Source: Accumulibacter sp.
GTDB taxonomy: Bacteria > Pseudomonadota > Gammaproteobacteria > Burkholderiales > Rhodocyclaceae
Assembly (NCBI GenBank): GCA_017302455.1
Contig: JAFLDO010000030.1
Location: 1 to 61,299, forward strand
Length of the DNA stretch: 61,299 bases
Direction: 5' to 3'
A program made the position numbers and the translations under genes. Shown here one piece after another: positions 40,995-44,866 of the stretch; position 1 is the first letter of the stretch; the number at the start of each line of letters is the position of its first letter. The notes beneath the pieces were generated by a model. It worked only from the letters and a program-made list of their open reading frames with translations, ran no database searches and had not been told where the DNA came from.

Positions 40995-43900
40995 TCAGAC
41001 CACTTCCAGGACGGCGCCGCCGAAGGTAAATCCTCCCCCAAAAGCGGTAAGACCCCACTTCTGCCCCGCTGTAGCCAAGGGCAGAAGTTCCTCAAGGCAA
41101 AGGGGAATGGTCGAGCTGGAGGTGTTCCCACTGTGGCCGATGTTGGAGTAAACCTGGTCTTCCGCCAGCTTCATTCTCTGGCGGAGAGCATTGATGATCC
41201 TCTGGTTGGCTTGATGCGGAACGACGAGATCCAGGTTCTGCGGTTCCATGCCCAGCTGACGACACGCGTCCACCAAGGCCTGCGGCATGTACTTGACCGC
41301 GCCCAGGTAGACCTTGGGACCATCCATTGAAATCTTCTCGCCGGGATTGGCGGGCAGCTTCAGTATTTCACCCGACTCTCCATGCGTTCCTATGGCTGTT
41401 TCCAATACCTTGAGTTTCATGACTCCGGCTCTCCCCGACCCGACAAGCAGAGTAGCCGTGGCAGCGTCGGCGAACACCGGCGCGGTACCGTAGTCGGCCA
41501 TGTCGATCTGCGGCGACAGGACTTCCGCGGTAATCAGCAGCACCCGATCCTTTTGCCGGAGTTTCAAGTGATCGGACGCCTGCTTCAATCCAAAAATATA
41601 CCCGGAGCAAGCAGAAGAGAAGTCATAGGCAGGAACCAGGATGGGATCGGCCTCATCGAGGTTCAGATTCATCTGGATCATGGCAGCCAGGGACGGGGTG
41701 TGGGCTGGCGGCGTACCCGTCGACACCAGGATCAGATCGATGTCCGCCAATGTCAGGCCCGTTTGTTTGAGCAACTTTCTCGCTGCCGCCGTGGCCAGGA
41801 ACAATACCGTCTCTCCGTCGGCAATCCAGGGCCTGGTTTCAATACCGATGCGCTTGAAGATATCATCGGTCTCCCACTCGGGACACATCCCGGCAATCTC
41901 CAGGTTGGTGACAACCCGACTTCCCTTGACACTCGTTACGGCCTGAATGCCCACCAATCCTTGGGAATCCCGGTGAGAAACCAGCGGTGCGACCGGCGTG
42001 GCGGGCGCCAGCCGCAGGTCGGATATCCGAGGTTGTCCCGGATTCTCTTTCGTCAGAGGCTTGAAGCCTTCCTCGCCCTCGCCGATCTTGACCTTTAGAA
42101 CAGGCGTACCCACCTTTACCATGGTTCCTTCTGGAACCAGGATTTCTTCCAGGAGTCCAGAGGCTGGCGATCGCAACTCCACGGCGGCCTTGTCGGCTTC
42201 CAGGTCGCCGATATAGTCCCCTTCCCCGATCGTATCGCCCGGCTTTACCAACCACCTGGCCACCGTGACGGATTCATCAGAGGGGCTGGAACCAATGGCC
42301 TCCACCAAGAAGCAACCTCTTGGCGCGGTGGGCGGAAGCTCCCAGCCAACATGACCTCCAAGCATTTCCACAGCCGTTTCAAGTAGGCGTTTATAGCTCG
42401 GGAGAACCTCCAGCTGGTTGGCAAAGTTACAGGGCACATAGGTGTCTGCCCTCGCCACCCGGCGGACGCGGAAGGGTCTCGCTACCGTTTCTGCCATGAC
42501 CGCTATGATTTCCGCACCCATGCCCGCACTCTCGTTATCCTCGTGCACGACGACAAGGCGCCCGGTCTTCTCCACCGAAACGGCCACAGTCCTCCGATCC
42601 CAGGGCTGGAGCGTTCTGAGATCGATGACCTCCGCCTCAGCACCCTGCGATGACAAAGCCACAGCCGCCTGGAGGCAGAGTTTCACGGTGTTGCCGTAGC
42701 CAACCAGGGTGATGTCCTTTCCCTGACGGACGGTTCTCGCTCTTCCCAGGGGAATGAGCTGTTTCTCCACGTCGCAACTGGTGGCGTTGTCCCGGTCATT
42801 GAGGCAGCTCTTCGGATAAAAGAAAAGGGTTGGACGTCCGCTTTCGAAGGCCGCGTTGAGAAGACCTGCGGCGTCGCCAGCGGTCGAAGGCATGAAAACG
42901 TCCACTCCGGGCGTGTGAACAGCCAGGGCTTCGTAACTCGAGGCGTGGAAAGGACCCAAACCGGGTTTGTAGCCGCCGCAGGTGACCATGACGATTACGG
43001 GCGCTTCCCAACCCCCGTCGGTTCGCCAATGCATGGACCCCAGTTCTGAAACGATCTGATTGTAGGCAATGGGAAGGAAGTCCGCGAATTGAAGAAAGGC
43101 CACCGGGCGCCTTCCCGCCAGGGCTTCCCCGATGCTGACTCCGACGATGGTGGCTTCGGCCAGTGGCGAGTTCCTTACCCGGCCCGGAAAGGTGGTCGAC
43201 AGGCCTTTGGTCAGCCCGAAGACGTCGCCCTTGGGATCCTCGAGATCCTCACCGAACAGGGTGATCCTTTCGTCCTCCGACATCCGTTTTCTCAGCACTT
43301 CGCGGATGGCTTCCAGCATCACCAGATTGTCTTCACCGGTGGCGGAAGGGGAGCCTCGATATTCAGACGAGGGGTCTTCCAGCGTTGGTGGCAAAGGCTT
43401 CAGCGCCGTACGGGTGGGAGACGGCTCCGGACTTCTTTGGGCCAGGGAAGCTTGTATCTTGAGATCGGCACGCAGGGAGTCCCCTAGCCCAGCAAAGAAG
43501 TCTTCCGGTACACCCTGAGCCTTGAGCCAGATTTCCAGGTTCACAATGGGGTCCCCGGATTCCTTCACCTGCTCGAGTTCGCCGACACTGCGGTAGATTC
43601 TCTGGTCATCGGCATTGGTGTGGCTATGTAAGCGGTCCACGTCCATGATGACAATGGCCGGACTCCGGTCTTTTCGCATGGCCGCGACCAGCGTTGCGAA
43701 AGTCTCCAGGCAGGTTTGCGGATAGCGCCCATTGATCCGGTGAATGGGAATTCCATAGAACTCTGAAGCATCTCCCGCCGGCGTCTGGTAAAAGGTCTTG
43801 GCGGTGGTGGAGGTGGAGATGGCCAGCTTGTTGTCCTGGACCAGAAAAAGCACAGGCAGGTTTTCTCGGACGGCGTGCGCCAGGGCTTCAAGAACCTCTC

Positions 43901-44357
43901 CCTGCTGAGTCATTCCATCGCCAAGCGAGCACAGCACCACCGGTTGATCGGCGTCACCTTTCACCGCGTTGGCAACGCCAACCGCCTGCAGAGCCGAGTT
44001 GCCCACCGGCCCCACGAGGGACAGAATCCTGAGTTGCGGGCAACTCATATGCGCGTTCATTTGACGGCCCCGGCTGTGGGAGGCGTCTTTGTTGAAAAGC
44101 GCAAGAAAGAACTGCTGTGGGGCAATGCCACGGGCCATCATCAGAGCTTTGTCGCGGTAGTGGCAGTGGAGCCAGTCCTGCGGTCCCAGAAACGGACTCA
44201 GGGCTGCAGAGGCTTCGTGGCCTGCTCCGGAAACGTGAAAGACAGCCTCCCCTCGACCCGTGTATTCCTGCTCGATCAGATCGACCTCGCGCGACATCAC
44301 CATGGTCCGGTAAAGGGCTTTGAGGATATCCAGAGGTGCTGAGGCTTTGATTGCCAT
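40995..44357 (-). CDS. Fused 2-oxoacid dehydrogenase E1alpha-E1beta, lipoyl domain and ketoacyl synthase III
   Basis: From ATG 44357, with AGGAGA upstream, 1120 residues. Domains: E1alpha (about 10-305) with thiamine-diphosphate motif GDG at 146-148 and Asn176; E1beta (about 345-665) with GEDLED at 369-374; lipoyl domain (about 680-760) with Lys723 in LEADKA; FabH-type synthase (about 805-1120) with Cys917 in SSACSGY, His1048 in VPHQANQ and Asn1078 in SGNTSSS, the full KASIII triad. An E2 catalytic domain is absent. Inference: a 2-oxoacid is decarboxylated, the acyl group is carried on lipoate, and the synthase condenses it, perhaps with malonyl-ACP. An E3 from elsewhere would be needed. Region GC is lower than its flanks (33 of 60 bases at 42781-42840), suggesting transfer. 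Confidence 0.88.
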   Translation of the reverse strand: MAIKASAPLDILKALYRTMVMSREVDLIEQEYTGRGEAVFHVSGAGHEASAALSPFLGPQDWLHCHYRDKALMMARGIAPQQFFLALFNKDASHSRGRQMNAHMSCPQLRILSLVGPVGNSALQAVGVANAVKGDADQPVVLCSLGDGMTQQGEVLEALAHAVRENLPVLFLVQDNKLAISTSTTAKTFYQTPAGDASEFYGIPIHRINGRYPQTCLETFATLVAAMRKDRSPAIVIMDVDRLHSHTNADDQRIYRSVGELEQVKESGDPIVNLEIWLKAQGVPEDFFAGLGDSLRADLKIQASLAQRSPEPSPTRTALKPLPPTLEDPSSEYRGSPSATGEDNLVMLEAIREVLRKRMSEDERITLFGEDLEDPKGDVFGLTKGLSTTFPGRVRNSPLAEATIVGVSIGEALAGRRPVAFLQFADFLPIAYNQIVSELGSMHWRTDGGWEAPVIVMVTCGGYKPGLGPFHASSYEALAVHTPGVDVFMPSTAGDAAGLLNAAFESGRPTLFFYPKSCLNDRDNATSCDVEKQLIPLGRARTVRQGKDITLVGYGNTVKLCLQAAVALSSQGAEAEVIDLRTLQPWDRRTVAVSVEKTGRLVVVHEDNESAGMGAEIIAVMAETVARPFRVRRVARADTYVPCNFANQLEVLPSYKRLLETAVEMLGGHVGWELPPTAPRGCFLVEAIGSSPSDESVTVARWLVKPGDTIGEGDYIGDLEADKAAVELRSPASGLLEEILVPEGTMVKVGTPVLKVKIGEGEEGFKPLTKENPGQPRISDLRLAPATPVAPLVSHRDSQGLVGIQAVTSVKGSRVVTNLEIAGMCPEWETDDIFKRIGIETRPWIADGETVLFLATAAARKLLKQTGLTLADIDLILVSTGTPPAHTPSLAAMIQMNLNLDEADPILVPAYDFSSACSGYIFGLKQASDHLKLRQKDRVLLITAEVLSPQIDMADYGTAPVFADAATATLLVGSGRAGVMKLKVLETAIGTHGESGEILKLPANPGEKISMDGPKVYLGAVKYMPQALVDACRQLGMEPQNLDLVVPHQANQRIINALRQRMKLAEDQVYSNIGHSGNTSSSTIPLCLEELLPLATAGQKWGLTAFGGGFTFGGAVLEVV

Positions 44358-44866
44358 GGGTTCTCCTAGGACTCTAACCAGCATCTATCGACTTCGTGTC
44401 ACAGCCCGGGGCTAACGTGGTTTCCTCAAGATCCATGACCATCGTTCCCGACTGTCGGCGAATTCTCTTGAAAGACGGTTAGGCGTTCTCCGGGAGTTAG
44501 TCCCCAATCAAGGGCTTGTTCCACGTTTTCCGGGGTACTGGCGGTTTCTGACAACTGGATCAGGCAAGGCGATCCAGGGGGCATCGTGACAGGTTGCGAA
44601 AATCAGTCTGACAAGGCTGGTCACCCCCGGCGTGCCACACTCACGCCCGCTCGCGAAAGTGTCGGCATCAGACGCTCGCGACGGCGGCTTACCGGGTCGA
44701 CCGTCGATTCGATCTCGGGACTCTCATCGGGCGGCGCTGGGCGGCGGCCGCAGCCCGGGCGCCACAATCCCGGCGCGCGATCCGGGCGGCTGACGTTCAT
44801 CGAGAAGGGCCAGGACAGCTATCCCCGGCGTAATCCGGATCGCGCCCTGAGGGAGAATTCTGTGGC
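44358..44866. other. Intergenic 509 bases upstream of the fused enzyme gene
   Basis: This stretch holds the presumed promoter of the fused gene and a possible 52-residue reading frame (listed separately). The half nearer lpxD (about 44600-44860) is GC-rich with a long, featureless plus-strand open frame that looks accidental. No RNA gene or riboswitch is recognised. Confidence 0.4.
44426..44584 (-). CDS. Possible 52-residue reading frame upstream of the fused enzyme
   Basis: ATG 44584 to TGA 44426 encodes a peptide starting MPPGSPCLIQLSETAS and containing NVEQALDWGLTPGERLTVF. Its codon use has the relaxed third position of the fused gene rather than the GC-rich use of its surroundings. No ribosome site is visible, and a chance frame is a real alternative. 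If genuine, it would be a small partner or carrier-like factor; it lacks a recognisable phosphopantetheine site. Confidence 0.25.
   Translation of the reverse strand: MPPGSPCLIQLSETASTPENVEQALDWGLTPGERLTVFQENSPTVGNDGHGS

Follow-up and report, generated by a model that had tools for sequence, protein, structure and literature searches.

The 61,299-nucleotide stretch of Accumulibacter sp. DNA analysed here (the window; contig JAFLDO010000030.1, assembly GCA_017302455.1) encodes on its minus strand a single polypeptide of 1120 residues. It joins both halves of a thiamine diphosphate (ThDP)-dependent 2-oxoacid dehydrogenase (E1alpha and E1beta) to a lipoyl carrier and to a FabH-type ketoacyl synthase (KAS III) (Table 1). 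The frame runs from a Met codon at 44357 to a stop at 40997-40995; a mechanically called open reading frame could begin further upstream, at 44384, and the plus strand across 40995..44357 is interrupted by stops. The best solved match of the E1beta region was 1um9_B (E 8.5e-58). The frame and the order of Pfam domains bear out the first-pass annotation, which had described one fused frame made up of these parts, and the residues that it had singled out (GDG 146-148, Asn176, Lys723, Cys917, His1048 and Asn1078) are all found under those numbers. It was also right that the protein has no E2 catalytic domain: among the 10 Pfam families matching at E 0.01 there was neither a 2-oxoacid_dh (E2 core, PF00198) nor an E3-binding nor a PP-binding (acyl carrier protein (ACP), PF00550) domain. 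Against TIGR00747 (FabH) the KAS III domain scored 215.8 bits, below the curated cut-off of 292.1, and against the broader PRK09352 model it scored 250.6 bits, just above the cut-off of 249.

Table 1. Features of the fusion gene, in window coordinates.
Feature	Position	Strand	Basis
Whole gene, E1alpha-E1beta-lipoyl-KAS III, 1120 aa	40995..44357	minus	frame and Pfam order; same order in other genomes
E1alpha domain, residues 16-284	43506..44312	minus	Pfam PF00676 (E1_dh), 1.4e-36
GDG 146-148 of ThDP motif	43914..43922	minus	G146 60/60; D147 55 Asp and 5 Glu; G148 60/60
E1beta region, residues 345-655	42393..43325	minus	Pfam Transket_pyr 347-519 and Transketolase_C 538-650
Lipoyl domain, about residues 690-760	42078..42290	minus	Pfam PF00364 (Biotin_lipoyl), 4.3e-16, residues 696-755
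Lipoyl attachment Lys723 in EADKA	42189..42191	minus	Lys in 60/60 fusions
Lipoyl-KAS III linker, about residues 761-800	41958..42077	minus	length varies among copies
KAS III (FabH-type) domain, about residues 801-1120	40998..41957	minus	Pfam ACP_syn_III 911-981 and ACP_syn_III_C 1033-1118; NCBIfam PRK09352, 1.9e-74
Trp828, place of E. coli Thr28 (adenine contact)	41874..41876	minus	Thr in 43/43 canonical, 0/58 fusions
Asp832, place of E. coli Trp32 (adenine stacking)	41862..41864	minus	Trp in 43/43 canonical, 0/58 fusions
Thr887, place of E. coli Phe87, small residue	41697..41699	minus	Thr/Ser in 58/58 fusions
Catalytic Cys917 (E. coli FabH Cys112)	41607..41609	minus	59/59 with letters
Tyr956, place of E. 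coli Arg151 (adenine stacking)	41490..41492	minus	Arg in 43/43 canonical, 0/58 fusions
Catalytic His1048 (E. coli His244)	41214..41216	minus	59/59 with letters
Catalytic Asn1078 (E. coli Asn274)	41124..41126	minus	58/58 with letters

Residue conservation was counted over 60 distinct fusions, after removal of one duplicate (L090). Loci L054, L063 and L085-L088 were left out as repeats of earlier loci (L085 was taken to equal L025), L060 (broken) and L061 (E2-type C-terminus) were not counted as fusions, and large-sample matches from Verrucomicrobiota and the order of Cysteiniphilum entered the alignment only where the locus had been fetched. Asn176, which lies downstream of GDG in the ThDP motif, was present in 60/60 fusions, as were Glu401 and His471 of E1beta, and His64 was present in 57/60. 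The segment from E1beta to the lipoyl core (residues 655-694, window 42276-42395) was 40 residues long in 60/60 copies, and on these alignments the E1 side of the arm seems to have an invariant geometry; the stretch from lipoyl to KAS III (755-814) ranged from 52 to 90 residues over the 60 copies. Distances between E1 parts correlated with distances between KAS parts (r = 0.84 for 58 proteins, whereas 500 shuffles gave no more than 0.09), and by this measure the two parts have diverged together. The KAS domains of the fusions formed one group against canonical FabH with support 100, in a FastTree tree that came with long-branch warnings.

In FabH, according to PMC4606726, Thr28 hydrogen-bonds to the adenine of coenzyme A (CoA) and Trp32 and Arg151 stack on either side of that ring, while Arg36, Asn209 and Asn246 (Yersinia numbering) hold the pantetheine. 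Asn209 and Asn246 were taken to be residues 210 and 247 of the E. coli enzyme. The comparison set 58 fusions against 43 stand-alone FabHs (that of E. coli K-12, 12 from host genomes and 30 of a Pseudomonadota panel). Two fusions cut at a contig end (L010, L023) were left out, as were five KAS III relatives from the same hosts, the partial L047 and the distant L048-L051. Of these four distant relatives, two have Phe32 and Arg151, one has Trp32 and Tyr151, and one has neither contact, so that the adenine contacts are not universal in the wider superfamily. Thr28, Trp32 and Arg151 were each present in 43/43 canonical enzymes and in 0/58 fusions. The alignment segments around these contacts were free of gaps in 57 and 58 of the 58 fusions. 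Canonical FabH has 66 columns with a conservation of 90% or more, and an open scan showed 10 of these to be lost in the fusions, the three contacts among them (hypergeometric test, 0.0026); under a stricter threshold (at least 97% conserved), five of 46 columns never occurred in the fusions, and three of the five were the adenine contacts (6.6e-4). Cys112, His244, Asn247, Arg249 and Asn274 were retained, and Arg36 was found in 48/58 fusions.

Textbook priming of branched-chain fatty acids requires separate Bkd E1, E2 and E3 components, free acyl-CoA and a FabH that binds CoA. The fusions would be expected to perform the same overall conversion, from a 2-oxoacid to 3-ketoacyl-ACP, but lack both an E2 and the CoA adenine contacts. 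In the model that we favour, the fused E1 half, with ThDP, would decarboxylate a 2-oxoacid and reductively acylate the lipoyl group on Lys723 of its own chain. The lipoyl arm would then carry its acyl load across to the KAS III domain for direct uptake by Cys917, and the Cys-His-Asn triad would condense the acyl group with malonyl-ACP to give 3-ketoacyl-ACP for the ordinary type II fatty acid synthesis cycle. The dihydrolipoyl arm would be re-oxidised in trans by the cellular E3, and the separate FabH of the host would keep acetyl-CoA priming.

Transfer straight from lipoate to the Cys of the synthase, bypassing E2 and free acyl-CoA, which the first-pass annotation had put forward, gains support from the absence of the adenine contacts in 58/58 fusions that keep the triad, Asn247 and Arg249, and we regard it as quite likely; a need for an external E2 and free acyl-CoA appears unlikely on the same residues. 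The protein as a whole probably starts fatty acid synthesis on its own and independently of CoA, acting on a 2-oxoacid most likely derived from Val, Leu or Ile. It is also reasonably probable that the proteins of this family, found in at least three phyla, are ketoacyl synthases primed by the acyl-lipoyl arm of their own chain, forming a CoA-free entry to fatty acid synthesis in which the CoA adenine site has been discarded. If so, a single protein would prime branched chains without an E2 and without drawing on CoA, and lipoate, which serves in oxidative complexes and in the loading of nonribosomal peptide synthetases (NRPS), would take on the further role of priming a condensing enzyme directly. 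A single gene would then also be available as a starter for making branched fatty acids. We found no earlier description of this fusion in the open-licence PMC literature, and what is new here is the loss of the FabH adenine contacts as sequence evidence bearing on mechanism.

The gene content of the hosts was compared with this model. E3 dihydrolipoyl dehydrogenase, above cut-off, and lipA (lipoyl synthase) were each found in 9/9 host genomes. A separate FabH-like gene was present in 20/20 other hosts searched and in the genome of the window; the fusion would therefore add a second priming line, which would be independent of the acyl-CoA pool. A whole-protein search found no other E1alpha/E1beta gene in three Cysteiniphilum genomes (G001-G003) or in G722 and G1089, giving matches of 23-28% identity or none; homodimeric E1s of the AceE type were not searched for.

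Several observations weigh against direct, lipoate-specific priming. Asn210, a pantetheine contact, is present in 29/43 canonical enzymes and in 0/58 fusions, Lys214 in 29/43 compared with 10/58, and Lys256 in 35/43 compared with 27/58; given these changes, the pantetheine and ACP side of the domain, to whose residues we take docking of ACP to be assigned, is retained only in part. Trp occupies position 28, four residues before 32, in 34/58 fusions, and 25/58 have a Lys no more than two residues away from position 151; these residues could partly make up for the missing contacts. Because the segment between E1beta and the lipoyl core has a constant length, the mobility of the lipoyl domain may be lower than in E2 proteins. 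Loss of the adenine site would moreover fit any donor other than CoA, for instance acyl-ACP, and not lipoate alone.

The same changes enter into a more conventional arrangement, in which the E1-lipoyl part works with an external E2 to form acyl-CoA and the KAS domain uses it like any FabH. Further lipoyl proteins, encoded in frames about as long as those of E2s, do occur in the hosts, Trp828 and its counterparts could partly hold the adenine, and the changes at Asn210 and some of the ACP-side Lys residues may mean that the site is simply divergent. We nevertheless judge this arrangement improbable: all three adenine contacts are absent throughout, the protein has neither an E3-binding domain nor an E2 core, and fusion would then bring little gain. 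A second possibility is that the KAS III domain stands in for an E2, moving the acyl group from lipoate to ACP without condensation. Some KAS III relatives are indeed acyltransferases, and E1 proteins related to that of the fusion precede Streptomyces modules of the order lipoyl-E2-ACP-ketosynthase (KS), in which the acyl group would reach ACP ahead of condensation. KAS III enzymes of the acyltransferase type usually alter the triad Asn, however, whereas Asn1078 is retained in every fusion with letters at this position, and we consider a pure acyltransferase doubtful.

As the main substrate, a branched-chain 2-oxoacid is on balance the better candidate, because of the E1alpha ranking and of the small residue at position 87. 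In a ranking of solved structures, which is a ranking only, 1um9_A and human branched-chain dehydrogenase alpha stood best for E1alpha, above pyruvate dehydrogenase alpha. Position 87, which we take to be an acyl pocket position in FabH, is Phe in 35 of the 43 canonical enzymes, Met in four, Leu in three and Tyr in one; in the M. tuberculosis FabH it aligns as Thr. A small residue here in all fusions suggests, if the position has that role, room for a bulky acyl group. Pointing the other way, the bacterial branched-chain E1alphas 1qs0 and 2bp7 rank below pyruvate dehydrogenase, and the best NCBIfam E1 models, among the best 25 of 40 matches, are pyruvate dehydrogenases, all below cut-off. The same enzyme might thus use pyruvate, giving an acetyl starter, or a ketose phosphate, giving a glycolyl unit, so that the product would be an ordinary or a hydroxylated starter. 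QncN/QncL are reported to make a glycolyl unit, and SclQ2-4 are proposed to do so from a ketose phosphate (PMC6335953). Set against the E1alpha ranking, the residue at position 87 and the FabH-like gene that the hosts already possess, such a substrate seems the less likely choice, though it is the most serious of the alternatives considered.

A phenotype that might bear on the substrate comes from Salinispira pacifica, which makes iso-C15:0 (11.7%) and ante-C15:0 (PMC4511686). This link is weak and offers no clean test, since the fusion copies of this organism (genome G363) are broken and another E1 set is present besides them. The two copies, at L102 6826-10342 and at G363:C1:1146697-1148886, are each split into several frames, by decay or sequencing error.

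The domain order recurs well beyond the window. A related-locus search returned 25 loci in other genomes, of which 23 span the protein and two (L010, L023) are truncated where their contig ends. The bearers include metagenome-assembled genomes (MAGs) of Spirochaetota and Verrucomicrobiota, three Cysteiniphilum strains, Marinobacter halodurans, a Caedibacter MAG, a Proteobacteria MAG, a Burkholderiales MAG and Ca. Accumulibacter necessarius. The fusion thus occurs in isolates too, across Spirochaetota, Verrucomicrobiota and several Pseudomonadota, and some bearers carry it on contigs of genome size. Matches to the protein at E 1e-150 were also counted in drawn samples of genomes. Among Spirochaetota, 10/296 genomes matched (eight single full frames, one broken into frames and one with an E2-type C-terminus), and among Verrucomicrobiota 25/240 (23 spanning the protein, two partial). 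In the order of Cysteiniphilum the figure was 14/33, 12 of them spanning and two ending at residues 1085 and 833 at contig ends. Only 2/398 Pseudomonadota genomes matched, that of the window being one, and in the family of the window it was the single match among 150. None of the 132 plasmid records matching at E 1e-60 covered 80% of the protein.

The A. necessarius copy is 91% identical to the protein of the window, with dN 0.044 and dS 0.469 between the genes (dN/dS about 0.09). Over 23 kb of A. necessarius, only the fusion gene and the adjoining lpxD align to the window. The GC content of the gene is 59.1%, compared with 64.3 +/- 1.6% for equally long stretches of the window; low GC and rarity among kin fit a horizontal gain. 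The same two features are what might be cited for an artefact, either a chimeric assembly or a decayed gene. A chimera or assembly error is ruled out by the recurrence of the order in the 25 loci, including A. necessarius, by the genome-size contigs elsewhere and by the low dN/dS, and the probability left for any artefact is negligible. The search across genomes that the first-pass annotation had proposed as a check thus came out in favour of a genuine gene.

Comparison with known systems would place the fusion among enzymes that load acyl units. It resembles the pyruvate and branched-chain 2-oxoacid dehydrogenase complexes in its ThDP E1alpha/E1beta pair with a GDG...N motif and in its lipoyl domain with an attachment Lys, where lipoylation is predicted; unlike them it contains neither the E2 acyltransferase core nor the E3-binding domain. 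With FabH (TIGR00747) it shares the sequence family, the triad and Arg249, and from FabH it departs in its score, its missing adenine contacts and its fusion to the presumed acyl donor. The nearest known logic is loading of the QncN/QncL/QncM type. The Qnc and Scl enzymes of the quinocarcin and scleric acid clusters pair ThDP E1 parts and a lipoyl domain with an acyltransferase domain and ACP (PMC6335953). As in QncN/QncL/QncM and SclQ1-4, E1 parts and a lipoyl domain would load an acyl unit for biosynthesis; those systems feed NRPS through an acyltransferase E2 domain and ACP, whereas the fusion has KAS III in place of both, forms one chain and has no gene neighbourhood in common across lineages.

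A second comparison is offered by Streptomyces plasmids, three of which were scanned (L095 11962-18495, L096 7911-14440 and L153 5929-12454). In each, an E1alpha-beta gene directly precedes a polyketide synthase (PKS)/NRPS that begins lipoyl-E2-ACP-KS, which looks like a CoA-bypassing loading module. Like the fusion, these modules have a single-chain E1alpha-beta and a lipoyl domain upstream of a ketosynthase; they differ in having an E2 domain (FDHTV.NG motif) and ACP between lipoyl and KS, and in using a modular KS, not KAS III. E1beta sequences were placed in a midpoint-rooted tree with 41 rows, 21 from the 60 fusions and 20 others. The 21 fusions, four Streptomyces E1s and one E1-lipoyl-E2 protein (from G371) fell on one side and 15 other E1betas on the other, with support 100. 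From this tree and the Streptomyces and Qnc arrangements, the fusion seems to be part of a wider biosynthetic E1-lipoyl logic, in which KAS III replaces E2 and ACP. The G371 protein (L103 1602-4835, contig C108) is a 1078-residue E1alpha-E1beta-lipoyl-E2 fusion with a 2-oxoacid_dh domain (Pfam 8.8e-40) in the place of KAS III, a sister architecture. In L095 and L153 the E1alpha-beta and PKS/NRPS genes lie beside pabB and prephenate dehydrogenase genes.

Neighbouring genes were clustered for the 25 related loci, the contigs of several being short, and the scan covered 20 neighbours. No gene neighbourhood was common to different lineages among these loci. A biosynthetic gene cluster is for this reason not favoured, and of the fatty acid or polyketide-like priming that the first-pass annotation had envisaged, the polyketide-like part seems the less likely. 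Within lineages, one spirochaete group has aconitase, NeuB and (in 4/5) SerRS genes nearby, and Cysteiniphilum and its kin have a LysR-type gene and a topoisomerase I gene. A LysR-type regulator gene lies upstream on the same strand in L029 (8788-9681, Pfam scan), with relatives in L026, L031 and L033 by blastp cluster, and a pyridoxal phosphate-dependent decarboxylase gene lies upstream of the fusion in L015 and L018. Just downstream in L011 (13522-14400) and L013 (13567-14397) is a short-chain dehydrogenase gene with a match to the ketoreductase (KR) domain, which would suit the formation of a ketoacyl product and whose enzyme could reduce the 3-ketoacyl group. The gene of the window has lpxD as one neighbour; another, an enoyl-CoA hydratase/isomerase gene, is on the opposite strand. 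In genome G723, an unbroken fusion frame is preceded, at a distance of about 0.9 kb, by the gene of a 798-residue E1-lipoyl protein without KAS (L097 9501-11894), a partial duplicate or a partner.

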